Positions 35,503 to 54,325 of a stretch of DNA of 64,000 bases are shown here, piece after piece. Below the pieces are notes generated by a model that searched no databases, was not told the origin of the DNA, and saw nothing but the letters and a program-made list of their open reading frames with translations. The position numbers and the translations under genes were made by a program. The DNA lies in IMG/VR virus record IMGVR_UViG_3300024260_000002, positions 62,001 through 126,000 of that record; one strand, written 5' to 3'. The DNA is from a virus. The number at the start of each line of letters is the position of its first letter. The stretch's first letter is position 1.

Positions 35503-36285
35503 TCATAATGACTCATTATAATCATTAAATGCTTGTAGTAAAGCATGTTCATGATCTTTAAGAGTAGCACAAAGATCTTTATCAAGACATGCACTAAAAT
35601 CATCCGCATTTTTAGTTAAACTTTGACCATATCCTCTATAACCATTGTGTGAAATATTTTCTTGATTAGGAGTAGGTATGTTTTTCATCATAGAAGACAT
35701 CTTTAATGAGTTACCTGTTATATCTTGAATCATTTCCCAGAATAGAACTTTACTTGCTAGAAGAATATTTCTTGTATATTTAAAATCAATAGCTTCTTTC
35801 ATTGAACAATGTTCAAATTTTAATCCTTCTACTCTTGTGTTGTATTTAAAATTCGTTTTATAAAATTCTTCTACAAGCTTAGTATTAATAATATTACCAC
35901 CGAGTACAAAATAATTTTGATTATAGAAATCTTCATTAGCTGAACGTTGATTTAAAAATTCAGGAGACATTACTATATTTAATTTGTCTGTGTACTGTAA
36001 TATGTTTGAATAAAGGACAGTACTTTTTATTATAACAGTTCCCATAAATTCTCTATCTTCTAATGCATCAAGTACTCTATGTAATACCATAGGATTTTGA
36101 TCACCACTAGAAAGCATAGGTGTATTAACACATACAATAACTATACTATCTTTACTATTCATGATAGGAGTTTCTTTTGAAAATATTTCAGTACTTTCAT
36201 CAAATACTTCAATTCCTTTACCTATATAACTATTATACAATGCTCCACCAACAACACCTAAACCTATAAGTGTATGATTAAACAT
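35503..36285 (-). CDS. UDP-sugar dehydrogenase-like protein, catalytic Cys missing
   Basis: 260 residues, ATG overlapping the previous gene by 8 bases. The Rossmann motif GLGVVGGAL (residues 8-16) and the strings VIVCVNTP, IIKSTV and SPEFLNQRSANEDF are typical of UDP-glucose/UDP-mannuronate dehydrogenases. The usual FGGxCFPKD active-site loop reads RGYGQSLTKNADDF, so the nucleophilic Cys is not there, and the protein is much shorter than cellular enzymes (about 400 residues). It may bind a nucleotide sugar or NAD without four-electron oxidation, or do a different reaction. It follows the epimerase gene. Confidence 0.75.
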   Translation of the reverse strand: MFNHTLIGLGVVGGALYNSYIGKGIEVFDESTEIFSKETPIMNSKDSIVIVCVNTPMLSSGDQNPMVLHRVLDALEDREFMGTVIIKSTVLYSNILQYTDKLNIVMSPEFLNQRSANEDFYNQNYFVLGGNIINTKLVEEFYKTNFKYNTRVEGLKFEHCSMKEAIDFKYTRNILLASKVLFWEMIQDITGNSLKMSSMMKNIPTPNQENISHNGYRGYGQSLTKNADDFSACLDKDLCATLKDHEHALLQAFNDYNESL

Positions 36286-37303
36286 CTTCGGCCTCGTCTT
36301 CTAAAGCAATCTCAGCATCCTCAATTTCTTCTTCTTCACCTTTAATATTATAAAGTATATCATCTAAAGAAATATTTTCCACTTCCATATCAAGAAGTAA
36401 TTCATTATCCATTTTAAGGACTCTGTTTTTTAAAGCATTTGATTCTTTATAATCTTCACTCTGTTCAATAACAGAGTTAGATTCAAATATTTGAATTATC
36501 TTCTCTGCTAAAATAGTTGCATAGCAAACATTATAAACATTTCCAATATTAAAATCACCAAGATTAAAAGGAGAATTCTCTCTTTCAAGCATTAAGTGAA
36601 TACCAATAGGTACTATATAATCAATAGCTTCTCTTATATCACAATAGCTTCTTACACCATCTTCTAATATAATTAAAGGTTCATTTTTTAAAGCAGCTTC
36701 TATAAATGTAGGAACTACCATACCTTTTGTTGTTTGACCTTTACCAATAACATTGAAAAATCTAATAATAGCACTAGGATATGTTCCAGTACCAAAAAGA
36801 AATTCCCCATGTACTTTAGCAGCAGCATATGACCAACGAGGAGAATCTTCAAGCTTCTTAATTTTATAAATTGATTCATCATCAATTGTTCCAGAACCAT
36901 GAACTTCACTAGAAGAACTATATACTACTGGAATATTAAATTTCTCACAAACTTCATCTACAAACATATTAATCTTTGTAGCTTCTCTTAATGTTTCACC
37001 TGAGTTATTAGTAATTGTTTTAACTCCAACTGGACTAGCAAGGTGATAAATTAAACTGACATCTTTAAATGTATCTAATTGTCTATATAAACGTTCATCA
37101 CTAAAATCCATAGTAAATAATTCTAATCTTTCTTCTAATTCTTTAATTTCATCACCAACACAAGAATCCCGAAAATCTTTAAGTACTTGACTAGGTTCTA
37201 GCATCTTATCGCCACCAATTACATGATAGCCTTTTTTAAATAAATCAATTGCTAAATGGCTTCCTATGAATCCACTAGCACCTGTTATAAATATCTTTTT
37301 CAT
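36278..37303 (-). CDS. NAD-dependent epimerase/dehydratase-type sugar-nucleotide enzyme
   Basis: 341 residues, AAGGTGTAAT start. Extended short-chain dehydrogenase: TGASGFIGSH (residues 7-16), YSSSSEVHG, and the catalytic SYAAAKVHGE (Tyr159, Lys163). Closest in pattern to UDP-glucuronate decarboxylase or UDP-glucose 4-epimerase types. C-terminal 40 residues are acidic (EEEEIEDAEIALEDEAEDV), an unusual tail. It lies with a dehydrogenase-like gene, and both would act on nucleotide sugars in the cytoplasm to supply glycan or surface modification. Confidence 0.82.
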   Translation of the reverse strand: MKKIFITGASGFIGSHLAIDLFKKGYHVIGGDKMLEPSQVLKDFRDSCVGDEIKELEERLELFTMDFSDERLYRQLDTFKDVSLIYHLASPVGVKTITNNSGETLREATKINMFVDEVCEKFNIPVVYSSSSEVHGSGTIDDESIYKIKKLEDSPRWSYAAAKVHGEFLFGTGTYPSAIIRFFNVIGKGQTTKGMVVPTFIEAALKNEPLIILEDGVRSYCDIREAIDYIVPIGIHLMLERENSPFNLGDFNIGNVYNVCYATILAEKIIQIFESNSVIEQSEDYKESNALKNRVLKMDNELLLDMEVENISLDDILYNIKGEEEEIEDAEIALEDEAEDV

Positions 37304-37304
37304 A

Positions 37305-38102
37305 TTACACCTTCTTTATATATTGTAAAACACTTGAACCTCTAGTTTGAAAAGAATGTCCTATTGCCATAATTTTAATAGGACATTCTTCTTCATTAAT
37401 AACTTCTTCAATTACTTCCCCTAGCTCGTTAAACACCTTAAACACCACATCACCTGGTTGAACAATATCATTTATATCTTTAATGAAATCAATAAATCCT
37501 GTTTCTAATGTATGCAAACTTTGTAGCTTCTGCTCATCAACTATCATAGAATCTGGAAATTTTTGTATAGCATCAACCAATGAAATAATATCACCTGTTG
37601 CTATTTTTAATTCTTTTGAATTATTTAAAGTACTCATACCTGAAAATTCATATGTAATACCAATTTTACCAATTTGATTAGTATAATCTTTTATTGTTCC
37701 ACCTACTGAATATCTAGAAGCATATTCAACACCAGCACTTTTACATAAGCTTTGAATTGTATAATCTTTTGATATATCAACTAAACAAAAATTAGCACAT
37801 CTATGTGAGTTATGAATATCTATAACAACATCATATTCATCAATCAATTCTTTAATCTTTGTTGTTACCTTACCATGTGTTTCAATTTCGTCTTTGAAGC
37901 TTCTATTTAAATCATATGATGAATTTGAGGGTTGAACTTCTCTTTCATTGCAAATTAGACCTGATTCATTTAAAAAAGGAATCACTTTTATATCTGGATC
38001 ATTATAATATTTCTTTAGTTTAATGCCCAGTTGTACAGCGCTCATTTCATTACCATGAGTTCCTGAGAGTATTAATATTTTTATATTTTTCATATTTTTC
38101 AT
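37305..38102 (-). CDS. Succinylglutamate desuccinylase/aspartoacylase-like metal hydrolase
   Basis: 265 residues. It has GTHGNE (His16, Glu19), NERE, DLNRSF and VVIDIHNSH (His97), the usual zinc ligands and substrate-binding Arg of the AstE/aspartoacylase branch of M14 carboxypeptidases; TYEFSG further on is also compatible. Family members hydrolyse N-acyl amino acids; the phage substrate is unknown. It sits between the epimerase and a 42-residue gene. The start ATG (38102) has a modest AGGAT upstream; a second Met three codons later is possible. Confidence 0.75.
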   Translation of the reverse strand: MKNMKNIKILILSGTHGNEMSAVQLGIKLKKYYNDPDIKVIPFLNESGLICNEREVQPSNSSYDLNRSFKDEIETHGKVTTKIKELIDEYDVVIDIHNSHRCANFCLVDISKDYTIQSLCKSAGVEYASRYSVGGTIKDYTNQIGKIGITYEFSGMSTLNNSKELKIATGDIISLVDAIQKFPDSMIVDEQKLQSLHTLETGFIDFIKDINDIVQPGDVVFKVFNELGEVIEEVINEEECPIKIMAIGHSFQTRGSSVLQYIKKV

Positions 38103-39179: not shown

Positions 39180-39797
39180 CTAATTATAATTAATTTTGCT
39201 TATGTCTGGATAATCTTCTGATGATCCAATTATGAAATCTTTAGTCTTTAATTGGTTTAAAATTAAAATACCTTTTGCTGCCTCATCTGGGGACATATAC
39301 ATATGATATCCCATTATGATATTTTTTAAATCTTCTGAAGTTGTTACAGAGGAATCTCTACCATCATGAGTCATTCTTTTGAGCATTAAATAATCATTAT
39401 AATTATCTAATAGAATTGCTCCACCTTTACCTATGTTTAATGTCTTCTTTTGTTGAAAACTTAAACATTGATATTGACTAGCAATATACATATTCTCTTT
39501 GAATCCAACAGCACAATCATATATATCATATCCTAAGTTATATTTTTCTTCCCAAGTATAATCTACATAATCAAAATTAATTTGGTTATGTAAAAGCATT
39601 TGAGGAACACTAAGGTATGTTTTATTTGGAACAAAAAGCTTTGATGTACTTGTAAGTTCTTTTTTAAGTCTAAGTAACATTAAACATAAAAAGATTGCGT
39701 TTGTACATGAACTAGTTAGTACTACATAAGGAGCACATGTAAACGCTTGAAGTCTTTTTTCGAACATATCATTAAAATCATTATTGTTATTTATCAT
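39180..39797 (-). CDS. Short DegT/DnrJ/EryC1-type aminotransferase (PLP)
   Basis: 205 residues, AGAGGATAAT start. It aligns with the PLP domain of sugar aminotransferases: VVLTSSCTNAIFLCLMLL (cofactor phosphate loop), YDCAVG (candidate Asp94), SFQQKKTLNIGKGGAILLDN (candidate Schiff-base Lys118) and IMGYHMYMSPDEAAKGILIL. Full-length enzymes run about 370 residues; the C-terminal domain is missing here. The cofactor residues are kept, so it may be a minimal or truncated active enzyme. It is the last island gene, next to a glycosyltransferase, and fits amino-sugar synthesis. Confidence 0.72.
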   Translation of the reverse strand: MINNNNDFNDMFEKRLQAFTCAPYVVLTSSCTNAIFLCLMLLRLKKELTSTSKLFVPNKTYLSVPQMLLHNQINFDYVDYTWEEKYNLGYDIYDCAVGFKENMYIASQYQCLSFQQKKTLNIGKGGAILLDNYNDYLMLKRMTHDGRDSSVTTSEDLKNIIMGYHMYMSPDEAAKGILILNQLKTKDFIIGSSEDYPDISKINYN

Positions 39798-39798: not shown

Positions 39799-40623
39799 TT
39801 ATCCTCTGGTTCGTTTATTAAATTCTATTTTTTGTCTAATTTTCGTTTTAGCCCATTCATCTGTTTCTTCTACAAATAAATGTTCATGCCAAAAGATAAC
39901 TTCTTTAAGTTGTTCATCACTGAACTCACTAACAGGAGAATAACCTTCTCCTAGTTGATAATGCTTGATTGTTTTCATTTCAAGTCTCTTATTATTCAAC
40001 ATTTTATCTGCAACGTACTCTTCTAAGAAGAATAAACTAGCATCTTGATCTAACCAATCTTGCTCATGTTCATAACTTTTATCAAAATAAAGCTTACTGA
40101 ATTCATCACAAAATATAGTATAAAACTTAGAACTAGGTGGAGATATAGTGAATCCTGTATCTAATGGATTCTCCCATTTATCTAAATTTCGTTGACTTAA
40201 AGAACTAACATCATCATATTGTCCTACATAAACATTACCATCAAAATATCTTTCTGGAATAGGTTTAATAATATTCATATCTAAATCAATATGTATCAAT
40301 GTATCATTAAAATACCATTCTTCTAAAATTTTACCCACAAATGGAATCAAAAAGAAACCATATTCAAGTTGTTCAGATACAGGTAAATAATTTTCAACAT
40401 AAGTAACATTAAGTTCTTTTAGTTTCAAGATAGTATCTGCACTTGGTAAATTCTTAGTTGGAGCATAACATATAATATCTACATCTTTTAAACTTCCAGC
40501 ATTTTGTCTCCATTGTTGAAAACATTTAATAGCTTCTTGTTCATACATTCTAGGAACTTTAACATTCCCAGAGTTGTTATTTATATTATTGTTATCACCT
40601 TCTATAACAGTGAATAGTATCAT
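39799..40623 (-). CDS. Glycosyltransferase, DxD-type (GT-A)
   Basis: 274 residues. NDTLIHIDLDMNIIKPIP contains the metal-binding DLD (residues 113-115) in the context seen in GT-A enzymes with a hydrophobic lead strand. NPLDTGFTISPPSSKFYTIF and EHEQDWLDQDASLFFLEEYV resemble the acceptor-side conserved segments. The N-terminus MILFTVIEGDNNNINNNSGN has an Asn-rich loop. The ATG overlaps the previous gene by one base. It probably transfers a sugar from a nucleotide donor; acceptor unknown. Confidence 0.75.
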   Translation of the reverse strand: MILFTVIEGDNNNINNNSGNVKVPRMYEQEAIKCFQQWRQNAGSLKDVDIICYAPTKNLPSADTILKLKELNVTYVENYLPVSEQLEYGFFLIPFVGKILEEWYFNDTLIHIDLDMNIIKPIPERYFDGNVYVGQYDDVSSLSQRNLDKWENPLDTGFTISPPSSKFYTIFCDEFSKLYFDKSYEHEQDWLDQDASLFFLEEYVADKMLNNKRLEMKTIKHYQLGEGYSPVSEFSDEQLKEVIFWHEHLFVEETDEWAKTKIRQKIEFNKRTRG

Positions 40624-41516
40624 TAGAAACCTTCAATACTAAATATATCTTGTAGTTTAGCTACGGGTGTAGGTTTGATATATCTCAATTCATATCCTAA
40701 AAGACCGTTTGATTTACTAGGTCTAATATCTCTTAGATGCTTGAACTTATCTTTAGTTTGAACTAAATGATTAAGACTTGTTGGTTTATCTAAATCTAAA
40801 ATATACTCAACATGTTTACCTTTAAAGTCATCAGGAAGAAACATAAAATTTAAACTCTTAGCAAATATACAATAATCAAAGCTTTGACCCCAAACTAATT
40901 TACCATTTGGTCTTATTCTAAGTTTGTGTAAACTTAAATTTGGAACTAATATATCATCTTTGAGATCTGTCATTATTTGTGTAAGTTGATCAGAGTATTG
41001 ATCAATACTATCAAGATCTTCATCTATAGTTGGCAGACTAGTAGTGTCTTCCATTACTATAAAACTTTTAGTTTCAAGGTAGTATTTACTCATCCATGAG
41101 TATTTTTGAGTAGTAGTTGCTTTGTATAAAGCTTTTATTATATCTTCTAATGACATATTAACTTTGAACTTATCAGCAGCTGGACCAATTTTTGCAAAGG
41201 TCTCATGGACTGTACTTACATCATAATTATAATATTCTTCAATATAAGCATTTACTTTGTCTTTGATAAATAATTTATAATCCGTTCCACCAACAGTAAG
41301 TTTAATAATATAGAGTTTCTCCATACTTTCGTCCATACTTTGATTGATATTATTATTGTCAATTGTTGTGAATAAAATAAGTTTATAATTACCAAGTGTT
41401 TCAACTATTTCATCATCTAATTGTGTTTTATATTTATCTAATATATGTTTTTTATATATTATACATGCAGCTTTCTTTTCAACAAGTGTTCTATTTTTTA
41501 ATTTTTTACGTGCCAT
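40623..41516 (-). CDS. Unknown island protein (297 aa)
   Basis: 297 residues, AAGGAGAAGTA start; begins MARKKLKNRTLVEKKAACII and has a helical middle. Near residue 200 is SLHKLRIRPNGKLVWGQSFD, a His/Asn/Asp arrangement that resembles a catalytic-loop layout, followed by DYCIFAKSLNFMFLPDDFKG. I cannot assign a family; a kinase or transferase is only a guess. It lies between the amidinotransferase and the glycosyltransferase with overlapping ends, so it is part of the same transcript. Confidence 0.65.
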   Translation of the reverse strand: MARKKLKNRTLVEKKAACIIYKKHILDKYKTQLDDEIVETLGNYKLILFTTIDNNNINQSMDESMEKLYIIKLTVGGTDYKLFIKDKVNAYIEEYYNYDVSTVHETFAKIGPAADKFKVNMSLEDIIKALYKATTTQKYSWMSKYYLETKSFIVMEDTTSLPTIDEDLDSIDQYSDQLTQIMTDLKDDILVPNLSLHKLRIRPNGKLVWGQSFDYCIFAKSLNFMFLPDDFKGKHVEYILDLDKPTSLNHLVQTKDKFKHLRDIRPSKSNGLLGYELRYIKPTPVAKLQDIFSIEGF

Positions 41517-42543
41517 TACTTCTCCTTAAATCTAAAGTACTGCAGTGTATTCCACCACCAAAGATTTCACAGTTATCTAATTCAATAGGTACTACTGTAA
41601 ATCCATTTTGCTCAAGTACTTTTATAGTACCATAAGCTTCTTTATTAACTAGAACAGTATCATGACTAACACTTAGAACATTAATATCCATTCCTAAAGA
41701 GCTAGCGAGTTGTCCATCTAAATTGATTTTGTTTGATACATCTCTAACTTGATATTGTTCAGGTACTAATATTCGATAATTCTTTAACCATGGAATCTGT
41801 TTTAATAAAGCATCTTTGTACTTAGGATTCACAAGAAAAGTATTTGAATTTAACTGAACAATAGCTCCATCAATATGATTATCAACTACACTAATTTCAA
41901 AGAATTCTTTATTTGGAAAGAATTTCTTTATCCAAAGATAACCTAAGTAATGGTTATAACTTGATATGTTAACAACTATCTTATCATGAACTCTTAAGAA
42001 TTGGGCACCGTCAATAGCCATCGTATAACCGCTCATATCTCGCGTATAATCTCTTTTAAGATCCCAGGCATCCAAATCTATAGTATCCTCGGTTATTATT
42101 GTTTTAGGCGCTGTAATCCATTGAGTATCTTGTTTAGCAAATATATCATACAATGCTTGGTTCTCAAAATATCTACCAGTTACATATGTAGGAGTCTCAA
42201 TAATAATATCATCTATTACTATTGATAAATCTCTAACATTACTAGCACTTGATAATTCACTTTTAAATTGTGGTGTAACAACTTGTTGAACTTTGTCTAC
42301 AATAGTCGGACGATACACCTTAACTCCGAGTTTTTCTATAGTACTAGATAAATTATCTAAATCATAAATTCTCTTTTGTAATATATCTTTGTTAATGTGG
42401 TAGACGTCTTGTTCGTAAACTGAGTGATTTAAATTTGTTTTATAAAAATGTTTAAAAGTAAAATCTATACTTCTATCATTTAATTCAAGCTCTCTACCAA
42501 CAATAACCTCATGTAATTTTGAGTATCCATTATCTGATCCCAT
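41506..42543 (-). CDS. Amidinotransferase-type (guanidino-group modifying) enzyme
   Basis: 345 residues, AAAGGAATTAA start. Features of the glycine/inosamine-phosphate amidinotransferase family: KLHEVIVGRELE at the N-terminus, VVDNHIDGAIVQLNSNTFLV with the His-x-Asp pair, and the C-terminal EIFGGGIHCSTLDLRR with candidate nucleophile Cys334. Length matches the family. Such enzymes move an amidino group from arginine to an amine, or, in relatives, hydrolyse arginine. With a DegT-type aminotransferase two genes away, guanidylation of an amino sugar or amine is a reasonable hypothesis. The substrate is not visible. Confidence 0.83.
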   Translation of the reverse strand: MGSDNGYSKLHEVIVGRELELNDRSIDFTFKHFYKTNLNHSVYEQDVYHINKDILQKRIYDLDNLSSTIEKLGVKVYRPTIVDKVQQVVTPQFKSELSSASNVRDLSIVIDDIIIETPTYVTGRYFENQALYDIFAKQDTQWITAPKTIITEDTIDLDAWDLKRDYTRDMSGYTMAIDGAQFLRVHDKIVVNISSYNHYLGYLWIKKFFPNKEFFEISVVDNHIDGAIVQLNSNTFLVNPKYKDALLKQIPWLKNYRILVPEQYQVRDVSNKINLDGQLASSLGMDINVLSVSHDTVLVNKEAYGTIKVLEQNGFTVVPIELDNCEIFGGGIHCSTLDLRRSNGT

Positions 42544-42552: not shown

Positions 42553-43476
42553 TTATAATAATTCACAACCCTTAGATCGTAGAATATTTCTAATATTCTT
42601 TTCACAGAACTTACAGCAATCATATTCAAAATCTAATATCTTACCATAATCTTGATCCCATATATTAATACCAGATTCTTCTAGCCATATATAACAAGGG
42701 TAAATATTTCCGGATTGATCTATATGTATTGATCCATCTTCGAATGAAGTACAATGCATTGTTTTAGACTTGCGTTCTAATTTAGTCTTATTAATTAGTT
42801 GATTAGTATAATTAATTGCGGTCTGATAAAATTTAAGATCTTCGTTGTGAATAGGAAGTTTCTCTAGATTATAATCATCAACATATGTTGAATGATCTCT
42901 TGTGAAATAAGTTTTAGTGTAATTAACATTGTTAAATGTTTCGATCATCTCACGCATTTTTGTACTATTAAGATCTTCTTTATTATATGCAAATAATATA
43001 TGTTGAATATAATCATTCTTATTAATATTCTTGAATGCAGCTGCATTAGCTAAAAGATTATCTAATGAACAATTAACTCTATATGTTTCATGTAATTCTT
43101 GTGTGCTTCCACATACAGAAAAATATACAGAATCACCTTCTTTTAATAATTTACCTAACTTATACCACCATTCAGGATTATGAGTATCTCCATTAGTACA
43201 TATCTCTATGTCTAAATTTAAATTATGTAACTCTTTTATCAAATGAAATATTTCTTTATATAATGTTGGTTCACTTGTTGCACCAACCAAATTAATCTTA
43301 TTCAAATTAGGAAATAGTTTAATCTGTTCAATAATATCTTCTACTGATCTCTCATTATAAAATATCTTACCAGCTTCATTAAGTGTTTTATAATTTCTTG
43401 CACATAAAGGACAATTTAGATTACATGTTCCGGTTAGATCAAATTCAATCATATTTACTTTACTTCTATCTAACAT
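42553..43476 (-). CDS. Radical SAM protein, CPLC family (1 of 3)
   Basis: 307 residues. Iron-sulfur motif CNLNCPLC (Cys18, 22, 25) follows EFDLTGT; NLVGATSEPTLYKEI replaces the usual GGEP region; CTNGDTHNPEWWYKLGKLLK and SVCGSTQELHETYRV are shared with the two genes upstream in transcription. The C-terminal part has IHIDQSGNIYPCYIWL and CCKFCEKN, a SPASM- or Twitch-like cluster-binding end. It would use SAM-derived radicals; the substrate is unknown. The ATG overlaps the previous gene by 7 bases. Confidence 0.85.
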   Translation of the reverse strand: MLDRSKVNMIEFDLTGTCNLNCPLCARNYKTLNEAGKIFYNERSVEDIIEQIKLFPNLNKINLVGATSEPTLYKEIFHLIKELHNLNLDIEICTNGDTHNPEWWYKLGKLLKEGDSVYFSVCGSTQELHETYRVNCSLDNLLANAAAFKNINKNDYIQHILFAYNKEDLNSTKMREMIETFNNVNYTKTYFTRDHSTYVDDYNLEKLPIHNEDLKFYQTAINYTNQLINKTKLERKSKTMHCTSFEDGSIHIDQSGNIYPCYIWLEESGINIWDQDYGKILDFEYDCCKFCEKNIRNILRSKGCELL

Positions 43477-44423
43477 ACGAAATCCAATCCACTAATCTCA
43501 ATCATCTTTTTAGTCTTAGCTTCACATAAGAAACAATCAGGATATGTAAATTCAAAGATTTTAGTATAATCAAATATATAATCTTTATGTAATTTAGTTG
43601 GATCATCACAAAGGAAATCATCTTTTGATTCAGGAAATTCCATACTAATATAACAGTAATGCATTTGACCAAATTGATTAATATGCATCTTTTTTGTATT
43701 GAATGCTTTACATTCAATTGTTGCAGCATCACCAACTTTCTTACGACGATTGAATAATGTATTAATTGCATTCTCTCTAGTAATTAAAGGACTTATCTCT
43801 TTGGATACTTCCTTAACATGTTCAGTTAAACGTCTTCGTCCTTCTGTTCCAACAATATAACTATGAGAAAAACCTTTTACAATATCATTCATTGCTTCAC
43901 TTTTTAAATCTTCTGTGTTGTATTTGAATTCAATTATTTGAAGGATATCTCTATTAGAATGTAATTTAAATGCTTTGGCATTATTTAGAATTTTACTAAG
44001 ATCACTACCTACTCTATATTCAGCATTAACTTCTTGTGAACTTCCACATAATGTAAATGTACAAGAGCTTCTTTCATGTCCTTGTTTAAAAAGCTTTCCA
44101 AGAGATTCCCAATATTCAGTACTTTGTAATGAACCATTAGAAAACATATCAATATGTATATTTCTAGAATTAAAGTACTCAATAAGTTCTGGCAATTCTG
44201 GATATAATAATGGTTCACTAATAGCTCCAGCTAACATAATTCTAGTTAAATTTGGAAAGAAATCTAATTGTTTGATAATATCTTTTACTGGTCTAACATT
44301 CTTCTTTAATAAGTGTTGAGCATGAGAATAATTTCTTGTACATAAAGGACATTGTAAATTACATGTACCTGTTAAGTCTATCTCAAACTCTTTTATATCA
44401 CTTGTTGTTAATGTTTTTAACAT
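43470..44423 (-). CDS. Radical SAM protein, CPLC family (2 of 3)
   Basis: 317 residues, AAAAGGAAGATAGTT start. CNLQCPLC (Cys21, 25, 28) after FEIDLTGT, ITRIML-type strand, MLAGAISEPLLYPEL, FSNGSLQSTEYWESLGKLFK and TLCGSSQEVNAEYRVG, paralogous to the flanking genes. A C-terminal cysteine-containing part (MHINQFGQMHYCYI; DCFLCEAKTKK) again looks like an auxiliary cluster domain. It is the longest of the three. Co-transcribed with its paralogues. Confidence 0.85.
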   Translation of the reverse strand: MLKTLTTSDIKEFEIDLTGTCNLQCPLCTRNYSHAQHLLKKNVRPVKDIIKQLDFFPNLTRIMLAGAISEPLLYPELPELIEYFNSRNIHIDMFSNGSLQSTEYWESLGKLFKQGHERSSCTFTLCGSSQEVNAEYRVGSDLSKILNNAKAFKLHSNRDILQIIEFKYNTEDLKSEAMNDIVKGFSHSYIVGTEGRRRLTEHVKEVSKEISPLITRENAINTLFNRRKKVGDAATIECKAFNTKKMHINQFGQMHYCYISMEFPESKDDFLCDDPTKLHKDYIFDYTKIFEFTYPDCFLCEAKTKKMIEISGLDFVC

Positions 44424-44425
44424 AA

Positions 44426-45262
44426 CTATCTTCCTTTTAAATGTAATGCTAATTCAGATGTATCTGATTCAGCTTCTGCTAACCTATATATTTTATTATC
44501 ACTTAATATCTTTGAATTATTCTTACTACATTCCCAGCAATGTTTATCACCAAAATTCTTAAAAAGACTACAAGGATTTAACTTATTATCAGAACTTAGT
44601 AATGCGAAATTATATTCCTCCGCAGGACACTCTTTGGTGATATCTTCTCTATTCAAAGTACTATATGCTTCTGATACTAACTTGGGTAAATGTATTTCAC
44701 TATCTAATTCAAAATGTTCACTGACTGGTAAAGTATGAAAATACTCAGCCTTGTATTTATTAAATCTACTTCTATCATCATCTTTGTTATAATTAAATAC
44801 AATATAGTTTAATATGCCTTTTTTAGAATACAGGTTAATGATATCTAATCGTCTAAGAACTGTATTTAGATTACTACCTACTCTATATTTTTCATGAAGT
44901 TCTTGAGTACTTCCACATACAGTTAAATATATATGACCGTTAATGCCTTTAAATAACATACCAAGTTTACGATAATACATATCATCATGAGTGTCACCAT
45001 TAATAAATAATGATACTTCTATATCGCGCATTTTTAAGTATCTTAAAAGTGGCACAAGTTTCTTATATAGAGTCGGTTCTGATGTGGGACCAGCCAGAGT
45101 AACATACTTAAGATCTTTTAAGTTTTCTAATCGTTCAATTAAAACATTATAATCTAATGTTTTATTATCCGTTAATTCAGGATGAGTTTGTCTTATACAT
45201 AATGGACATTGTAAATTACATATATTATTTAACTCTATTTCTATTCTTGTTATTTCTCTCAA
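44426..45262 (-). CDS. Radical SAM protein, CPLC family (3 of 3)
   Basis: 278 residues from a TTG start with AAAGGAAATCTT upstream. ICNLQCPLC (Cys15, 19, 22), YVTLAGPTSEPTLYKKLVPL, FINGDTHDDMYYRKLGMLFK and TVCGSTQELHEKYRVG. C-terminal cysteines occur in LNPCSLFKNFGDKHCWECSK, a likely auxiliary Fe-S or zinc site. It is the first of the CPLC trio in transcription order, 10 bases after the four-gene DTHNQ array. Likely the same general substrate class as its two paralogues. Confidence 0.85.
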   Translation of the reverse strand: MREITRIEIELNNICNLQCPLCIRQTHPELTDNKTLDYNVLIERLENLKDLKYVTLAGPTSEPTLYKKLVPLLRYLKMRDIEVSLFINGDTHDDMYYRKLGMLFKGINGHIYLTVCGSTQELHEKYRVGSNLNTVLRRLDIINLYSKKGILNYIVFNYNKDDDRSRFNKYKAEYFHTLPVSEHFELDSEIHLPKLVSEAYSTLNREDITKECPAEEYNFALLSSDNKLNPCSLFKNFGDKHCWECSKNNSKILSDNKIYRLAEAESDTSELALHLKGR

Positions 45263-45272: not shown

Positions 45273-45899
45273 TTAAATGTAAACTATATTATCAAAATCT
45301 TTTTCAGTTATCCATCTCAATTGACTTTCGATTGTTGCATAAGTTCTATAATTTTTTAAAAGTAGTTTGTGATTAGCTTTGCTTAATTGAGGAGTATAAT
45401 CTTCTAATGATAATGAACCAGGAACTATATGAAATAATCTATTATTGTTATCAAGAAATGATTCTAAATTATGAAAGTTATTATCTGTTACAACAATCAT
45501 ATATTGAACATTCCCTGGTAAATCTTTTATTATCTCAGTATCTAAATTTTCAGAAGCATGGTATAAAATACTATTGAACTTATCAATTAAACTTGGATAC
45601 TTCTCTAAGAATAATCCATTAGTATTTAATGATAAATTATAGTCTTCAAATTCCTCAAGTAAATATAATATTTTTTCTAAGCTTAATGTTCCAACTTCGC
45701 CACCAGATAAAGTAATATTATAATCATTGTATTTCTCATGAACTAATTTAACTTTATTTTGTAATTCAATAGAACTTATAGCTGGTTGATTATGAGTATC
45801 AACACAACAATATTCACAATTCCAATTACATTTATAAGTAACTATAATTTCAAGTTCTTTCTCATTAGCTTTCATAAAATCTAAATTCATTCCTTCCAT
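45273..45899 (-). CDS. Radical SAM protein, DTHNQ array member (1)
   Basis: 208 residues. YKCNWNCEYCCVDTHNQ gives Cys24, 28 and 31; ITLSGGEVGT is the SAM-binding loop in place of GGEP; LNTNGLFLEKYPSLI and ILYHASEN follow. No C-terminal cysteine cluster, so it is a compact rSAM core without SPASM. The start has AAAGGACAAATA and overlaps the next gene by one base. It shares all marker strings with the three genes upstream in transcription. Function unknown. Confidence 0.83.
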   Translation of the reverse strand: MEGMNLDFMKANEKELEIIVTYKCNWNCEYCCVDTHNQPAISSIELQNKVKLVHEKYNDYNITLSGGEVGTLSLEKILYLLEEFEDYNLSLNTNGLFLEKYPSLIDKFNSILYHASENLDTEIIKDLPGNVQYMIVVTDNNFHNLESFLDNNNRLFHIVPGSLSLEDYTPQLSKANHKLLLKNYRTYATIESQLRWITEKDFDNIVYI

Positions 45900-46591
45900 T
45901 ATTTGTCCTTTGTTCTAAGTGAAACACAGTTTTCAAAATCATCTGATTCAAGAAACAATAAAGGTGCATGTGGTAAGAATAACCTATCTTTATATTTTTG
46001 ATATATTTTAAAACCTAATTTTCTATCAAGACCAGATTGATATACCTCTTTAACATAACCAGCATTAGCACCAATAACAGCAAATTGAAATTGAGGATAC
46101 TTATTTAAATACCATTCAATATCTTCAAATGAATCTTTATTTGTTACCACTAGTTGATAAATAAAATTATCATTTACAGGAATATGATCAAAGTGATATA
46201 ATTTAATTTCTTTTCTTGATCTAACATCTTGTACTGTATGATAGAGAACATCGCTTATGTATTTAACAACTAAGTCAGGATACTTCTCTAAAAATAGCCC
46301 ATTTGTATCAACTGTGATTACACAGTTCTTTTCTTTTAGGATTTCACAATACTTAATAATAAGATCTTTGGATACCATTCCTGGTTCACCACCAGCAAAC
46401 GAAACAATAGTATTATTTGGTACTTTAGCTAATTGATTCATAACAGAAGCATCATCTATCTGTTCATCTTGATTATGTGTGTCTGCACAACAGTACCAAC
46501 AATCCCAATTACATTTAAAAGTTAAATCAACATTGTAATGTATACTTGTTATCTGTTCAAAGTCTATCTTCTCTTCTTGCGTTTCTTGCAT
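45899..46591 (-). CDS. Radical SAM protein, DTHNQ array member (2)
   Basis: 230 residues, AAAGGAAATTAAA start. FKCNWDCWYCCADTHNQ (Cys27, 31, 34), TIVSFAGGEPGMVSKDLIIK (SAM-binding GGEP), VDTNGLFLEKYPDLVVKYIS and VLYHTVQDV. The last 70 residues have no cysteine motif beyond a lone Cys near the C-terminus. The protein keeps the whole catalytic front half and is about 100 residues shorter than typical SPASM enzymes. Confidence 0.84.
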   Translation of the reverse strand: MQETQEEKIDFEQITSIHYNVDLTFKCNWDCWYCCADTHNQDEQIDDASVMNQLAKVPNNTIVSFAGGEPGMVSKDLIIKYCEILKEKNCVITVDTNGLFLEKYPDLVVKYISDVLYHTVQDVRSRKEIKLYHFDHIPVNDNFIYQLVVTNKDSFEDIEWYLNKYPQFQFAVIGANAGYVKEVYQSGLDRKLGFKIYQKYKDRLFLPHAPLLFLESDDFENCVSLRTKDK

Positions 46592-46592
46592 T

Positions 46593-47156
46593 TTAATTTC
46601 CTTTTAATAAATGACTTATACTATCCCCGTGTACTTTATAGTTCTTGATTATATATAATGCATTCTTATTTGATAAACTATTTCCATTGACCTCTTTCAT
46701 ACTTGAAACAAAAAATTGAATATTATAGTTATCATAATACCAATCAAGCGCAAGAAAATTTGAATCATTAACCAACAACATATATGTAATTGGAACACTG
46801 ATATCAAATAATTGTATTTCTTTTAACTCTTCTATATGCTCTATACAATGATATAAAATATCATCAACATATTCTTCTACTATCTTTGGATACTTCTCTA
46901 AGAATAAACCATTTGTGTTTAGAACAATCTCACAGTTCTTTTCTTTAAGTAATTTAAAGTACTCAAGAATATCTTCTTCATTAACAGTACCAGGTTCACC
47001 ACCTTCAATATGGACTGAACACCCTTCTGGAATATTCTCAATACATTTAAGTACTTTCTTTTTAGTAGCTTTTGAACTACTTTGATTATGTGTATCAACT
47101 ATACAATAATTACAATGCCAATTACAAACATAAGTTATAGGTAAGAAACAATTCAT
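46593..47156 (-). CDS. Radical SAM protein, DTHNQ array member (3)
   Basis: 187 residues, the shortest of the array. VCNWHCNYCIVDTHNQ (Cys11, 15, 18), SVHIEGGEPGTVNEEDI, LNTNGLFLEKYPKIVEEYVD and ILYHCIEH. ATG overlaps the previous stop in an ATGA arrangement, so translation is coupled. Only the core beta/alpha units are present. Substrate unknown. Confidence 0.83.
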   Translation of the reverse strand: MNCFLPITYVCNWHCNYCIVDTHNQSSSKATKKKVLKCIENIPEGCSVHIEGGEPGTVNEEDILEYFKLLKEKNCEIVLNTNGLFLEKYPKIVEEYVDDILYHCIEHIEELKEIQLFDISVPITYMLLVNDSNFLALDWYYDNYNIQFFVSSMKEVNGNSLSNKNALYIIKNYKVHGDSISHLLKGN

Positions 47157-47773
47157 CTAAACCCCATTACTTTTACATTTTGATCAACTGATGTATTTTC
47201 ACCAAGTAGTTGCAAGATAGACTCTTTTGGAATTATATCTTTAATTTCATTATAGAGTTTAAATGCATTCTTAATACTTAGACTTGTTAAGTTTTGATTT
47301 TCATTCTTTCTTGCTCTATGAACATGAATAGGTAAATCAACATTGAGTAAGAAATCTCTAACAAGATGAAAATTAGTATCATCTGCTATGATAACATAAT
47401 CCATAGGTACATTGATAATAGGCATATATACATCGTAATTAGTTAAATCATCTTGTACATGATAAAAGAAGTATTCAATATATTTAACTAACTCAGGATA
47501 TCTTCTAAAGAAGAGTCCATTAGTATCCATGTGAATATTACAGTTCTTTTCTAATAATCTTTGTATTATTTCAACTAAAAATTCTTTCTTAGCCATTCCT
47601 GGTTCACCACCAGCAAGAGAAACTAAACTTCCATTTTTTAATGAATCAATACTATCAAATATATCTTGAGGTTTAGGTTCATCTTGATTATGTGTATCAA
47701 CTATACAATATGAACAATCCCAATCACACTTAAAAGTAATTAGTAAACAGTATTTTACTTTAACTTCTTCCAT
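47153..47773 (-). CDS. Radical SAM protein, DTHNQ array member (4)
   Basis: 206 residues, AAAGGAAATAAT start. FKCDWDCSYCIVDTHNQ (Cys16, 20, 23), LVSLAGGEPGMAKKEFLVEI, MDTNGLFFRRYPELVKYIEY and FFYHVQDDL. First of the array in transcription order and overlaps the glycosyltransferase-like gene by 19 bases. The late-conserved DTHNQ string, identical in all four, is unusual next to the iron-sulfur cysteines and may define the family. Confidence 0.84.
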   Translation of the reverse strand: MEEVKVKYCLLITFKCDWDCSYCIVDTHNQDEPKPQDIFDSIDSLKNGSLVSLAGGEPGMAKKEFLVEIIQRLLEKNCNIHMDTNGLFFRRYPELVKYIEYFFYHVQDDLTNYDVYMPIINVPMDYVIIADDTNFHLVRDFLLNVDLPIHVHRARKNENQNLTSLSIKNAFKLYNEIKDIIPKESILQLLGENTSVDQNVKVMGFR

Positions 47774-48657
47774 ATTATTTCCTTTAAAATGTTGATTATA
47801 TTATCATCTTTAGTAAGTTCTACCTGATTGAGATTCTTTAGATCTTCTATGCGATATTTCAAACCAAGATCAGTATCCAAATAATCAATATTTAGATACT
47901 CAACATCAATACCGAAGTATTGACATTCTGCTATCATTCGTGGAGAACAATCCCATTTTCTCGAAATAGGAGTATAAATATATTTAGATATATTTATAAA
48001 TTCTTCATAAGGTGTTCTTTCAATTTGACATATGTTAGATAATGAATCATAATAATCATTGTCTGTCAGTAATAAATAATTACCCGGATTACTTAAAATA
48101 TAATCCTTAACTACATCAAGTTCTAAAATTCGACAATTACCAGTTAGATACATTAATATTTTATCCGTTCTAATTGGTGATTTCAATTTACTAAATAAGA
48201 TCTTTTTCTTATAATCAATACCATTTACCTTTACTTGTTCATAGACTCTTTGGTCTTGTAACACATGAAGCTTAGGGTTGACATTATTTTTTATTTCTTT
48301 GTTTCCACATGCGAATGTAAAAACATTATCTGATAGATATGTTACTAAATTCATAGTATTTATATCTCCATCCATAAAGAATATATTCTTACATTTAATC
48401 AATGTAGGATGATAATTATTAAATGTAGTAACGCTTAATAACTTTTCAACTTCTTGTTGAGTGAATGTGTACTTCTTTATAACAGTACGAAAATCTTCTT
48501 CTGATAGACCTATAAATAGTACTCGGGTATCAAAAACATCTTTTAGAATATAATAGTAATCTATCAATTCAAAGATATGGCCACATATATTGTGACCATT
48601 ATTATTCCAGGTATAAGTTAATATTAACTCACCTTCTAGCATTAATATCTTTTTCAT
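47755..48657 (-). CDS. GT-B-like glycosyltransferase (probable)
   Basis: 300 residues. N-terminus MLEGELILTYTWNNNGHNIC with GHIFELIDYYYILKDVFDTR resembles the first domain of GT-B enzymes; the C-terminal domain has YTPISRKWDCSPRMIAECQY and FGIDVEYLN, where R-x-x-E-type donor-binding segments lie. No DxD motif. Ribosome binding site is weak, so it probably depends on upstream translation. It directly precedes the rSAM array, overlapping its first gene. Assignment is by pattern only. Confidence 0.6.
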   Translation of the reverse strand: MKKILMLEGELILTYTWNNNGHNICGHIFELIDYYYILKDVFDTRVLFIGLSEEDFRTVIKKYTFTQQEVEKLLSVTTFNNYHPTLIKCKNIFFMDGDINTMNLVTYLSDNVFTFACGNKEIKNNVNPKLHVLQDQRVYEQVKVNGIDYKKKILFSKLKSPIRTDKILMYLTGNCRILELDVVKDYILSNPGNYLLLTDNDYYDSLSNICQIERTPYEEFINISKYIYTPISRKWDCSPRMIAECQYFGIDVEYLNIDYLDTDLGLKYRIEDLKNLNQVELTKDDNIINILKEIIWKKLK

Positions 48658-48660: not shown

Positions 48661-49485
48661 TTAATCTTTTAATATTGTTTGTACCATTAAATCATTTTTG
48701 TCTAATGTGTATTTTTGTAATTGACCATCTTTGATATCTTTTTGGCGTAGTGTAGTGCTATCTTCAATGGTAGTTCTTTCTTCAATTATAATTGGAATAT
48801 TGTACCATGCTGCTTCTACTATAATACGATTATTTGTATCTAAACCGATATGAACATAAACAATTTGGTCTATTATATTAAATAGATTTTTAATTATTTT
48901 GATATCACTCTTCATTAGAATATTCTTTAAATTGTATTTCTCAGCAATTACAGCAATTTCACAACTATCACTCTTTCCCTTATTTACATAACTTAAGAAT
49001 GTTGTTTCCGTTTTACAATTTTCAATTTGTTTAAAAATACTAAAGTTCAACTTCAAAGTGCTCTTAATATCAAATTTTTGATAATCATAATAACCAAAAT
49101 ATGTGGTACCATTCGGGCTTCTATAATTATCATGAGTTTCATTACTATAAACAAAATGTTCACCTCGAACAAAACCTCTTAATCGTTTATAAGATGATAC
49201 ATCAACGAATAAAGCTTTTCTAACATTATAAGTATACATCTGTACAGTAGTACAGAATTGTATATCAATTTCTTCAATATCGTATTTATCTTTAATAGCA
49301 TTAAGTGAAAGAATTTCATCCTCTTTTAATTTACGCTTAGCAACAATATATAAAGTACATAATGAATGTTGTTGTAGTAAATAAAAATATTCAAATGCAT
49401 AATAAAAAGAACCGTTTATTTTGTTATGATCATTTATATAATATACAACCGCATTATGAGATTGTATATGATTAGGATTTATCAT
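48661..49485 (-). CDS. GT-B/GT4-like glycosyltransferase (probable)
   Basis: 274 residues, AGGAAGTAGG start. FYYAFEYFYLLQQHSLCTLY, then SYKRLRGFVRGEHFVYSNET, and the C-terminal YVHIGLDTNNRIIVEAAWYN followed by IPIIIEE, which resembles the GT4 'E..A.....P(V/I)I' donor-binding segment. Slightly short for the family. It pairs with the GT-like gene at 47755. Could be a non-catalytic relative. Confidence 0.62.
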   Translation of the reverse strand: MINPNHIQSHNAVVYYINDHNKINGSFYYAFEYFYLLQQHSLCTLYIVAKRKLKEDEILSLNAIKDKYDIEEIDIQFCTTVQMYTYNVRKALFVDVSSYKRLRGFVRGEHFVYSNETHDNYRSPNGTTYFGYYDYQKFDIKSTLKLNFSIFKQIENCKTETTFLSYVNKGKSDSCEIAVIAEKYNLKNILMKSDIKIIKNLFNIIDQIVYVHIGLDTNNRIIVEAAWYNIPIIIEERTTIEDSTTLRQKDIKDGQLQKYTLDKNDLMVQTILKD

Positions 49486-50121: not shown

Positions 50122-51048
50122 TTATTTTTCGTAACCATCGCATCGAAGAATGAATTCACAATCTTTACATGAACGAGGTTTATCGTAAGAAGCTATCCTA
50201 TTAGTTATAGCTGTTTCTAACATTGACTCTACTGTTATATCCTGAACTGTGGTTAAATCAAATGTTTGAATATTCCAATCAGTTAGATCATATATATGAT
50301 CTAACGTACTAACGCAGTATTTTTCATATCCTTTCATAAAGCAGAAAGGAATATATCTAACAGTCACAGGAACGATATCTTTATCGATAAAGATCATTAT
50401 CTTAGGAGATACTTTCTGGTAATCTAAATAATCTAATTTATGTGATGATTCCCATCTATTTAAAGGTAAGAAGTTTAACTGTTGAATTTTAACACCACAT
50501 CTTATTAGATATTTTATAATTCTAGCATAATTACGACCATCAAAATCATTTTGAACAGTGCAATTAATTCGAATATCCATATCTAACTCTTGAGCATTCT
50601 TAATTGCTTGAATTATCTTTCTAAACGCTTTATGATCAACTTTCTCATTATGCGATTTAGTATTCCAACCGTGTAAACTGAATAATATTTCAGATAAGCC
50701 ATGATCTTTAGCTTCTTTTAGTTTATCAATATCACTGAAACTAATACCATTTGTAAGCATAGCTATTTTATCAAAGTTTTTACACATATCTAAGATTGTT
50801 AAGAACTCAGGATGTATAGAACTTTCACCACCTGATAAATCAATACTTGTCATACCAGAAGCTTTCAATAAATTAATTTCATTCTCAATGATACTAAGTT
50901 TTCTAAAAGGATCTTTTAAATTACCTTGATAGTAACAGAATTCACAATTTAAATTACAAGTAGTTCCAGTATTTAATCTACCTCTTAAACATATCGGTTT
51001 ATCTGGTAGATCATTAATTTTGGGCTTTATTATTTTATTTAAATTCAT
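50122..51048 (-). CDS. Radical SAM protein next to the Cys-repeat fibre
   Basis: 308 residues. TTCNLNCEFCYYQGN (Cys31, 35, 38), SIDLSGGESSIHPEF (SAM-binding loop), CTVQNDFDGRNY and a C-terminal RSCKDCEFILRCDGYEK, a short SPASM-like cysteine group. The start overlaps the end of the fibre gene by four bases (ATGA). Ribosome binding site is modest. The overlap makes this rSAM protein and the fibre a translational pair. Confidence 0.84.
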   Translation of the reverse strand: MNLNKIIKPKINDLPDKPICLRGRLNTGTTCNLNCEFCYYQGNLKDPFRKLSIIENEINLLKASGMTSIDLSGGESSIHPEFLTILDMCKNFDKIAMLTNGISFSDIDKLKEAKDHGLSEILFSLHGWNTKSHNEKVDHKAFRKIIQAIKNAQELDMDIRINCTVQNDFDGRNYARIIKYLIRCGVKIQQLNFLPLNRWESSHKLDYLDYQKVSPKIMIFIDKDIVPVTVRYIPFCFMKGYEKYCVSTLDHIYDLTDWNIQTFDLTTVQDITVESMLETAITNRIASYDKPRSCKDCEFILRCDGYEK

Positions 51049-51872
51049 ATTATTCTGCTGAATATATCTCTATAAAGAGCATCATAATCGACTTGAAAAT
51101 ACTCTTCTGTATTTATAACATAAATTGATAAACCATCTCTGATTAAATCTTGAGCCATTACACCAAATTGTTTTTCTTTTGGTAAATCAAGTCCTAGTTC
51201 AGTACCATCAACATAATAAAATGAATAGAATTTAATAGGAGTTTTACTCTTAATTTTATTCGATGCTACTGTTCCAATATGATTTATTTCAATCTTTAAT
51301 CGTCTATCGCTATAGTTACAACCACAATCTGTATTACATGTACATACATTATTACAAGCACAATCTGAATTACATAAACAGTTATCCGCAATACTAATAT
51401 AATTGTTTATAATATTATTATAAAAAGCTGCTTCTATTTCTGCTGGACGAGATATTGAAGCTATACCAAAAGTACTAAATGAATTAATAACAGATACCAT
51501 TTGATCCCATTCGTATTTATAAGCAACATTTCCTTTAATAGCATTTAAAGTAATTTTAGGAATATACCATGATTGATTACTTGCTTGCTTGTATCTAGGA
51601 TCAGGATTACTTACTCCCCTAGACCAATTATTAGCAATACTATTTAATGAGTGTTTTAAACTTGTAGTGTCTTCTGTACAAACTGTATCAGTAATTCCTA
51701 CAAAATTTAAAGAGGGGAAAGCTGCTCCTTGATTAGGTGCATGGTGAGCCGCACAATCAATTCTTCTATCTTGTATAGCAGTAGCGCCTCCATATACTAC
51801 TTGACCTTCTATTGTAGCTGGATTAGCTACAAGGGTTGGAGTCGTTTCATCTGTTATATTATTAACTGCCAT
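51045..51872 (-). CDS. Tail fibre with four CxCN-type repeats and an S74 self-cleaving C-terminus
   Basis: 275 residues, AAAGGAATAAAA start. The first 160 residues are a beta-rich fibre head. Residues 165-185 hold eight cysteines at 165, 167, 171, 173, 177, 179, 183 and 185: hexapeptides with CxC spaced by NSD, NNV and NTD. It continues straight into SDRRLKIEINHIG (188-200), the S74 intramolecular-chaperone entry with candidate cleavage Ser188, then FGVMAQDLIRDG and FQVDYDALYRDI. S74 domains trimerise and cut themselves off fibre proteins. The cysteine run lies just before the predicted cut and so stays on the mature fibre. It lies between two rSAM genes. Confidence 0.85.
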   Translation of the reverse strand: MAVNNITDETTPTLVANPATIEGQVVYGGATAIQDRRIDCAAHHAPNQGAAFPSLNFVGITDTVCTEDTTSLKHSLNSIANNWSRGVSNPDPRYKQASNQSWYIPKITLNAIKGNVAYKYEWDQMVSVINSFSTFGIASISRPAEIEAAFYNNIINNYISIADNCLCNSDCACNNVCTCNTDCGCNYSDRRLKIEINHIGTVASNKIKSKTPIKFYSFYYVDGTELGLDLPKEKQFGVMAQDLIRDGLSIYVINTEEYFQVDYDALYRDIFSRII

Positions 51873-51883: not shown

Positions 51884-51908
51884 TAATTCCTAATTTTCTT
51901 AGGAATTA
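51884..51908 (-). promoter_or_regulatory. Hairpin between rSAM-SPASM gene and fibre gene
   Basis: TAATTCCTAA/TTAGGAATTA with a five-base loop overlaps the stop codon of the SPASM gene and lies 12 bases before the fibre ATG. It can serve as an attenuator or translation-control stem for the fibre; the fibre AAAGGA site follows it directly. Confidence 0.45.
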
Positions 51909-53009
51909 AATTCCTAAGTGTTTTTGCACGGTTCTATCTATTTTTCCGAATGCTTTATATATTCCACATAAGTCATCTTTTGGATCATGATACTTTTCTT
52001 CATATGTTTCTTTTGTTGATGTATCATGATTTACAATTGGACATTGATAACATACAGTTGCTGTACAACCTTTACAATGTTCAGGAACAAGCATAATTTC
52101 TTTATGTCTTTCATGTGAAGTCATAACAGCTTCAACCGGATTATCAATATGCCCAATTATAAAATCTTCTTTATTTTCAGAATATAACGCTCCATGACAA
52201 ACTAAAAGATTACCATCAATATCAACATTAGCTATATTCGTACCAGCAGAACAAACATTGCGTTCACCTGTTCCAAACCATGACCAAACGAATCTACCAT
52301 TAGCTTTATAATATTCTATTTCTAGCTTAGCAATCTTTAAAAATTGTTCATTAACTATCTTTAAGAACGGTTCATCTATTACATATTTGTTAGTGTACTC
52401 TAATGTAGGAGAATAGTTAAAAGTGGGATATTTTTCAATTAGTTCTTTAAAATGTAACCAATTCTCTAATAGATTAGGCATTTCATGAATTGCTAATGTA
52501 CTCTTTATACTGAGTTTAATATCTGGAAATTTATCCATTAAGTAATGAACTGAGCTTAGGACTGTACTTGATGTACCTTCACCTTTATGATCAACTCTTT
52601 CTAAATCATTATTAAGACCGTCATAACTTATTTGATAACTAAATCTTGAAGTGTCATCTATAAATAATTTAAAGTTATTAATAATTTTCTCAATATTTTT
52701 AACATTAAAACCATTAGTATACATGAAGAAATCAACAGGAGAATCTTTAAATTCATTAATCAATCTAATAATCATTTTAGAATTTAGAGTAGGTTCACCA
52801 CCCCAAAAATTAATAGTTACGCCGTTGAACACTTCTAGGAATTTCTCACCATTAAGCATCTCATGAACTGATTTAATAATATCATCTGTATGTAACTGAG
52901 GATTCTTATTTTGAAGCTCTTCCCCTTCGAAACAATAGGTACAAGCCATATCACACTTTTGTGTAGTTGTTACTTCATATGCGAAATATCTTTTTTGTCT
53001 TTGATTCAT
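51906..53009 (-). CDS. Radical SAM/SPASM maturase-like protein
   Basis: 367 residues. TQKCDMACTYCFEG (Cys19, 23, 26), VTINFWGGEPTLNSKMIIRL, and a full SPASM end: RNVCSAGTNIANVDIDGNLL followed by CHGALY, then CKGCTATVCYQCPIVNHDT. This is the anaerobic sulfatase-maturase/peptide-modifying architecture, where auxiliary clusters position a peptide. It is the most peptide-maturase-like of the ten. It is flanked by an 82-residue gene upstream (ATGA overlap) and the cysteine-repeat fibre downstream. Confidence 0.88.
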   Translation of the reverse strand: MNQRQKRYFAYEVTTTQKCDMACTYCFEGEELQNKNPQLHTDDIIKSVHEMLNGEKFLEVFNGVTINFWGGEPTLNSKMIIRLINEFKDSPVDFFMYTNGFNVKNIEKIINNFKLFIDDTSRFSYQISYDGLNNDLERVDHKGEGTSSTVLSSVHYLMDKFPDIKLSIKSTLAIHEMPNLLENWLHFKELIEKYPTFNYSPTLEYTNKYVIDEPFLKIVNEQFLKIAKLEIEYYKANGRFVWSWFGTGERNVCSAGTNIANVDIDGNLLVCHGALYSENKEDFIIGHIDNPVEAVMTSHERHKEIMLVPEHCKGCTATVCYQCPIVNHDTSTKETYEEKYHDPKDDLCGIYKAFGKIDRTVQKHLGI

Positions 53010-53780: not shown

Positions 53781-54325
53781 GACTTATATTCTAACGGCAT
53801 TGTAGCTATGCTAATAATATGATCAATTGTTCCATCATCAACATCAACAACAATATATGGAATTGAATTTTTCATTAATAAATGAGCAATTGTATCATCT
53901 AAAAGTTTAGCACCTTCCAAATCTTGTTCTCTACCATACTCTTCGTATAGAGCTTCTTTATTTCTTCTAAGAAGAATATTAACATTATTATATCTATTAA
54001 ATTGTTCTTTTAGATAAGCATTAAATTCAGCAATTGGTATCTTAGTTTCACAACAATATGACATTCCCATTATGAATGGACTATCATGTACAGCATAATC
54101 AACTTTATTAAGAAGTCTATACATTCTATGATGCTGTTCACCTGCTACCAATAGTTGGTCAGAAAGTCTAAACCAATCTTCTGAATATACTAATTCTTTA
54201 GCAAACTCTTGAGTCATATCAACTTTCTTTCCTAGCATTTTTAATCTATCAAATACAGCAGCAGCTGTTCTACTTTTACCAACTCCTGGGCCTCCGAATA
54301 GGTTTATATTTATTGCACTTTTCAC
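53777..54325 (-). CDS. P-loop NTPase/kinase-like protein (182 aa)
   Basis: 182 residues from a GTG start that overlaps the previous stop (ATGTGA). Walker A GGPGVGKS at residues 11-18; a kinase-like YAVHDSPFIMGMSY follows and REQDLEGAKLLDDTIAHLLM later. The length and layout (P-loop at residue 11, D-x-x near 95) resemble small nucleoside or ATP/GTP-binding phage kinases. Likely cytoplasmic. Substrate unknown. Confidence 0.72.
   Translation of the reverse strand: MKSAININLFGGPGVGKSRTAAAVFDRLKMLGKKVDMTQEFAKELVYSEDWFRLSDQLLVAGEQHHRMYRLLNKVDYAVHDSPFIMGMSYCCETKIPIAEFNAYLKEQFNRYNNVNILLRRNKEALYEEYGREQDLEGAKLLDDTIAHLLMKNSIPYIVVDVDDGTIDHIISIATMPLEYKS

Follow-up and report, generated by a model that had tools for sequence, protein, structure and literature searches.

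Three tandem phage radical-SAM genes that probably help to decorate the virus tail

Why Campylobacter phages should carry a dozen radical-SAM genes has been a question since 2010, and it arises again for a locus in which three such genes, A1-A3, follow one another among tail genes. What kind of enzymes do they encode, how did they come to stand side by side, and what might they make? The window analysed here is a stretch of 64,000 bases, running from 62001 to 126000 in a virus record of 181,622 bases. It holds phage structural genes and has a low GC content, mostly 26-34%, with nearly all genes in the stretch of interest on the minus strand. Ten radical-SAM genes lie at 42553-55302, in about 13 kb, and are the only ones found in the entire record (Table 1). 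A tblastn search of 50,697 phage records with the presumed major capsid protein (22722-24341) found no match, which places the phage far from sequenced isolates. Between the structural genes, three related large ORFs (19318-20832, 20967-22604 and 62321-64000) share the motifs DRTLISPLELDI / DRTLINKELDI and YANRRWS, and are probably homing endonucleases.

Table 1. Radical-SAM genes and their neighbours, by position in the window.
Feature	Coordinates	Strand	Description
UDP-glucose dehydrogenase-like	35503..36285	-	short
NAD-dependent sugar epimerase/dehydratase	36278..37303	-	PF01370, 2e-26
AstE/AspA-type deacylase	37305..38102	-	8.7e-12
DegT	39180..39797	-	N-terminal PLP domain only, ~205 aa; candidate Lys retained (SFQQKK...GKGG)
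GT398	39799..40623	-	GT-A-like glycosyltransferase candidate; invariant DxD (IDLDM)
H406	40623..41516	-	no family match
AMT	41506..42543	-	arginine amidinotransferase, AGAT/StrB kind, by homology
A1	42553..43476	-	307 aa; radical-SAM, twitch-type C-terminus; CX3CX2C at 18; CGSTQE at 122; CX13GX4C...CX2C
A2	43470..44423	-	317 aa; radical-SAM paralogue; CGSSQE at 126
A3	44426..45262	-	278 aa; radical-SAM paralogue; CGSTQE at 116; TTG start after AAAGGA
B1-B4	45273..47773	-	short radical-SAM proteins, 187-230 aa
H478	47755..48657	-	glycosyltransferase, GT-B/GT4 fold (predicted model)
H487	48661..49485	-	probable further GT-B-like protein, by motif
C	50122..51048	-	radical-SAM; 4-base overlap of its start with the CysS74 stop
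CysS74	51045..51872	-	S74-chaperone tail protein; C.C...C.C...C.C...C.C ahead of the S74 domain
D	51906..53009	-	radical-SAM; SPASM cysteines close to canonical; top NCBIfam profile, scoring below its cut-off, is the PapB thioether (ranthipeptide) maturase
E	54322..55302	-	radical-SAM/SPASM, PapB-like

Motifs and fold of the A enzymes

A1-A3 are real ORFs, tandem on the minus strand within 42553-45262; the ATG of A1 overlaps the end of A2, and AAGGA-like sites precede A2, A3 and AMT. All three pass the Pfam Radical_SAM (PF04055) cut-off of 29.5 bits, with scores of 56.7 (A1), 30.9 (A2) and 42.1 (A3). The initial annotation had reported CPLC, SEP and CGSxQE motifs in each protein, and rereading the ORFs bears this out: for A1, A2 and A3, respectively, the CX3CX2C region is TGTCNLNCPLC, TGTCNLQCPLC and NNICNLQCPLC, the SEP region is TSEPTLY, ISEPLLY and TSEPTLY, and the CGS(T/S)QE region is CGSTQELHETYRV, CGSSQEVNAEYRV and CGSTQELHEKYRV. 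The last motif was also said to be exact in position and spacing, which holds for its spacing but not for its position, 104, 105 and 101 residues from CX3CX2C. Nor does (T/I)SEPxLY replace GGEP, as had been proposed; it occupies the same place as the methionine-binding GGE(P), as a variant xxSEP in which E and P are retained in 37-38 of 40 A members. CX3CX2C and Y-R are invariant in the family, and the C-terminal end of A2, GLDFVC, is kept in most A2 orthologues. Pairwise identity is 39% for A1/A2, 33% for A1/A3 and 34% for A2/A3. The best NCBIfam match of all three is TIGR04317, the tungsten cofactor oxidoreductase radical-SAM maturase (1e-18 for A1), yet they are not members, scoring 50-68 bits (A1, 67.6) against an equivalog cut-off of 380.

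The C-terminal cysteines narrow the class further. A1 and A2 carry the motif of a first auxiliary cluster (CX9-15GX4C-gap-CX2C; PMC6231123) as CX13GX4C...CX2C, and A3 has the same cysteines with N for G, that is, CX13(G/N)X4C...CX2C; the four cysteines are retained in 37-40 of 40 A members. The CX5CX3C-gap-C part of the full seven-cysteine SPASM motif is absent from A1-A3, which therefore appear to be of twitch rather than SPASM type, and the spacing in A1 fits one auxiliary cluster, as in BtrN. A structure prediction, which the initial annotation had proposed, was run on A1 from 35 sequences and gave a SPASM/twitch fold (mean pLDDT 90.3, pTM 0.88). Its nearest solved fold is SuiB (Z 18.2, rmsd 3.9, 252 aligned), followed by BlsE (Z 17.5, rmsd 3.6, 240 aligned), SkfB (Z 17.4), anSMEcpe (16.4), MoaA (16.3), DesII (15.7) and BtrN (13.8). 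Judged by motifs and the predicted model, A1-A3 are SPASM/twitch-class radical-SAM enzymes. Since peptide and sugar enzymes tie in Z, the fold does not give the substrate class.

The canonical ribose segment of radical-SAM enzymes reads S-x-D-G...H..YR. In A1, Ser120 and Arg133 are 13 apart, with Cys122 at the usual Asp place of S-x-D-G. In the SkfB structure, the ribose-motif Ser is followed 12 residues on by an Arg that also holds the SAM carboxylate (PMC6231123); the alignment of A1 to SkfB is our own reading of this spacing. CGS(T/S)QE is the stretch of the radical-SAM core that binds the ribose, with a Cys where Asp would stand, rather than the special motif for which it had been taken. 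A new catalytic loop is ruled out by the position, which is that of DG in the ordinary ribose motif. The Campylobacter phage relatives (CP220 gp080, gp083 and gp084, and their F379 counterparts) have DGSTQELHSKYRV at the same place, with DGSTQE. Across the fetched loci, no protein outside the A family has Cys in place of this Asp; among those of bacteria and archaea, Asp stands there in 19 of 24 cases and Cys in none of the 24. The Cys marks a single clade of uncultured phages (29 rows, 100/99), within which L025 has Thr and L023 has Phe.

Family history and the shared gene block

In a tree of 85 radical-SAM sequences, all A sequences, A1-A3 included, form one clade (41 rows, 100/99), the B array forms another (21 rows, 100/98, CPt10_0881 included), and C, D and E each fall in clades of their own. 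The three A genes do not scatter over unrelated families, and the earlier view of them as a single family stands. Alignment scores agree, exceeding those of shuffled sequences by 19-33 sd between A proteins and 12-24 between B proteins, but only by 1-7 between A and B. B1-B4 have no conserved cysteines beyond CX3CX2C, and B copy number ranges from one to four among the phages.

Within the A clade, A1, A2 and A3 belong to separate orthologue groups of 8, 10 and 6 rows. Because each has orthologues in other phages, the triplication is, on this phylogeny, ancient and not a local expansion. A tree constraining A1-A3 of the window together was rejected (p-AU 9e-65), which rules out a recent local triplication. 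Thus, of the two independent expansions envisaged by the initial annotation, the separateness of the families survives, while a local and recent expansion of A does not. The CP220 trio (gp080, gp083, gp084) groups apart, with two genes of another phage contig, L028 (95/90), and the CP220 set hence expanded separately. The A family was found only in phages in this analysis; a pattern-limited contig scan for relatives in cellular genomes gave only distant matches, the best with 23% identity over 284 residues (6e-11). With no cellular homologue of known function found, function cannot be carried over to A1-A3.

About 15 IMG/VR contigs share the surrounding block wholly or in part, and CP220/F379 have a core version of it. 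Its gene order is an S74 tail gene, UDP-glucose dehydrogenase, E, D, CysS74, H495, H487, H478, C, the B copies, A3, A2 and A1, then the amidinotransferase, glycosyltransferase and DegT genes in varying order, and the epimerase. In the window, the dehydrogenase lies at the opposite end, beside the epimerase. In all, the block comprises five kinds of radical-SAM gene, three glycosyltransferase-like genes, a DegT fragment, an arginine amidinotransferase, a tail protein, a dehydrogenase and an epimerase. The conserved order A3-A2-A1, with the amidinotransferase alongside, would fit consecutive steps in a single pathway; that the two sets act on successive parts of one product, as the initial annotation had suggested, is a conjecture. 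Within the module, positions 38240-38956 of the window strongly match the Pfam family of Tad6 (5.5e-26), which inhibits type I Thoeris.

Several neighbours can be assigned with some precision. AMT matches AGAT (1.7e-22) and StrB (2.9e-22), its IDGAQ, HID and GGGIHC align with FDAAD, HID and GGGFHC of AGAT, covering the catalytic Asp, His and Cys, and it is 42.5% identical to CP220 gp086; by these sequence comparisons it is a true amidinotransferase homologue. Its homologues were recovered through the A alignment, a scan of viral contigs for amidinotransferases with a single sequence having found none. H478 was approached by structure because it matched no sequence among solved structures; its predicted model has a GT-B glycosyltransferase fold over nearly the whole length (Z 16.0 to 6eji, 15.9 to PimA). 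A Pfam search of GT398 orthologues found nothing relevant, and its CP220 homologue, gp088, is annotated as a nucleotide-diphospho-sugar transferase. DegT is reduced to its N-terminal half in other phages too (201-231 aa, the apparent catalytic Lys kept). The DegT protein and the dehydrogenase, both short, may lack activity. PIG-L deacetylases occur in the module of L016, L019 and L028. In other phages (L016:12879-14395, L016:12340-12870, L019:12417-13073) the module also includes membrane proteins that read as desaturase-like, together with an Asp/Arg hydroxylase and a 2OG-Fe(II) oxygenase. The StrB, BtrN and BlsE pathways provide the basis for comparison with sugar or aminocyclitol pathways, which the gene inventory resembles by analogy and not by membership.

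What the module may build

Given that A1-A3 represent one ancient family and lie in a conserved block made up of genes for sugar building and tail fibres, the three genes probably help to decorate the virus tail. As the most likely role of their module we tentatively propose that it matures a glycan of an unusual kind, probably guanidinylated, which the virion displays; the reactions of the individual A enzymes, the nature of the glycan and that of its acceptor are what we infer. The dehydrogenase and epimerase would make sugar nucleotides, in which A1-A3, acting in series within this tail-linked biosynthetic module and together with B and C, would oxidise, epimerise or rearrange unreactive C-H positions of the sugar. 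The DegT protein would handle an amine, onto which the amidinotransferase would pass the amidino group of an arginine. Glycosyltransferases of the GT-A and GT-B kinds would assemble the glycan and attach it to the tail fibres of the same stretch, its most likely acceptor. The sugar part of this proposal draws on the dehydrogenase, the epimerase, DegT, the PIG-L deacetylases, the GT-B fold and the DxD protein, and on the presence of the sugar enzymes BlsE, DesII and BtrN among the fold neighbours of A1; against it, the peptide maturases SuiB, SkfB and anSME stand at equal Z. The link to the tail draws on the S74 tail gene inside the block, with its 4-base overlap with gene C, and on comparable radical-SAM cassettes described in a pelagimyophage host-recognition cluster (PMC7029224).

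The acceptor could instead be host LPS or capsule. If the module remodelled the surface of the infected host, be it LPS, capsule or a flagellar glycan, other phages might be kept out, for example, or progeny kept from sticking to debris. Such remodelling would account for the glycosyltransferases, epimerase, dehydrogenase and deacetylases, which are typical of surface-glycan clusters, and the authors of the pelagimyophage study favour such a role for its glycosyltransferases (PMC7029224). Nevertheless, the cassette genes of the window include no recognisable polymerase, flippase or membrane protein, and the module genes lie within and overlap tail genes; we consider this role unlikely. Far more improbable is an auxiliary metabolic role under low oxygen, with a hypermodified nucleobase or small metabolite as the product. 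Timms et al. 2010 (PMC2853527) suggested that infected Campylobacter might gain metabolically, and A1-A3 do have weak QueE-like matches, but these reach 4e-05 at best, compared with 4e-47 for phrog_21308, and the tail region in which the genes sit also holds genes for glycosyltransferases and an amidinotransferase.

Another alternative, which we regard as unlikely, is RiPP-like maturation, in which the radical-SAM enzymes would cross-link or epimerise a tail protein and A1-A3 would modify peptide side chains. CysS74, which matches PF13884 above the cut-off, is the clearest target, for D and E. Its most conserved part is a C.CNSDC.CN.VC.C...C.CNYSD.RLK segment with eight near-invariant cysteines, and D lies directly upstream of it in the window and in 12 of 12 loci found, although these share ancestry and were chosen through the cysteine motif and hence are not independent trials; in two of them, L139 and L140, part of the motif is missing. 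A narrower scan for the cysteine motif found three contigs. PapB is the best match in all seven D-type proteins scanned, with maturases of CXXX-repeat and SCIFF peptides also scoring high. In CP220, the D orthologue gp136 has gp140, with its run of CTCDCNY-type repeats, about 2.2 kb upstream. SuiB and SkfB are, moreover, among the top folds for A1. On the other side, every D match is far below the curated cut-offs (68-93 bits against 340 for PapB), so that D is likened to this ranthipeptide maturase solely in how it may work; the cysteines of CysS74 might just bind metal or form disulphides; the A enzymes are not close to RiPP maturases; and after the A genes come an amidinotransferase and glycosyltransferases instead of peptide genes.

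The CP220 pair stands at a distance (160932-162536 and 164742-165911) and resembles the adjoining CysS74/D pair of the window. A 21-bp repeat within a gene was noted by Timms et al. 2010 (PMC2853527), in whose text the word cysteine was not found. We regard D/CysS74 as a candidate for radical-SAM modification of a virion protein. The two chemistries might also be combined: D, and E, would form thioether or similar cross-links in the eight-cysteine tail-fibre segment while the A and B sets, the amidinotransferase and the glycosyltransferases build the guanidinylated glycan on the same protein. This combination is doubtful. If true, it would place RiPP-like post-translational chemistry on the virus particle. 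For cultured phages, the predictions are testable as a mass shift of the tail protein and as thioethers in the cysteine repeat.

Relation to known phage modules

The literature joining phage, radical SAM and glycan or tail fibre yielded nothing relevant beyond PMC2853527, PMC7029224 and PMC6231123. BlsE, DesII and BtrN share the SPASM/twitch-class fold of the A1 model, with only 14-17% identity, and the A family is not a member of BtrN, whose profile matches only at E 0.01-0.1. In the pelagimyophage host-recognition cluster, a hypervariable region of T4-like phages, radical-SAM cassettes occur among tail fibres and glycosyltransferases; they are likened to ours by description, the available part of that report giving no family assignment or amidinotransferase (PMC7029224).

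Modules of this type have been described before. According to Timms et al. 2010 (PMC2853527), CP220 and CPt10 each have an interchangeable cluster in which five radical-SAM genes stand together with a putative glycine amidinotransferase. As here, the tail/baseplate region of these phages holds several radical-SAM genes along with genes for an amidinotransferase and for nucleotide-sugar transferases. The window likewise has an orthologous amidinotransferase beside A-family genes in the tail region, with CGSTQE in place of the DGSTQE ribose segment of the CP220-type module. CP220 gp080, gp083 and gp084 belong to the A family and CPt10_0881 to the B family; whereas CP220 and CPt10 carry A-type and B-type genes in alternative cassettes, the phage of the window has both families in one genome. 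It further differs from them in its ten radical-SAM genes in 13 kb, its D-to-C signature, its separate triplication, and its extra dehydrogenase, epimerase and DegT genes.

As far as our searches reached, what is new is the family structure, the ancient triplication, the D-to-C signature and the coexistence of both families, together with the wider syntenic block with its glycosyltransferases and the D/CysS74 pairing. For the Campylobacter phages, the block defines the enzyme families that occupy the alternative CP220 and CPt10 cassettes, and it connects these families with a tail protein, with glycosyltransferases and with an amidinotransferase.
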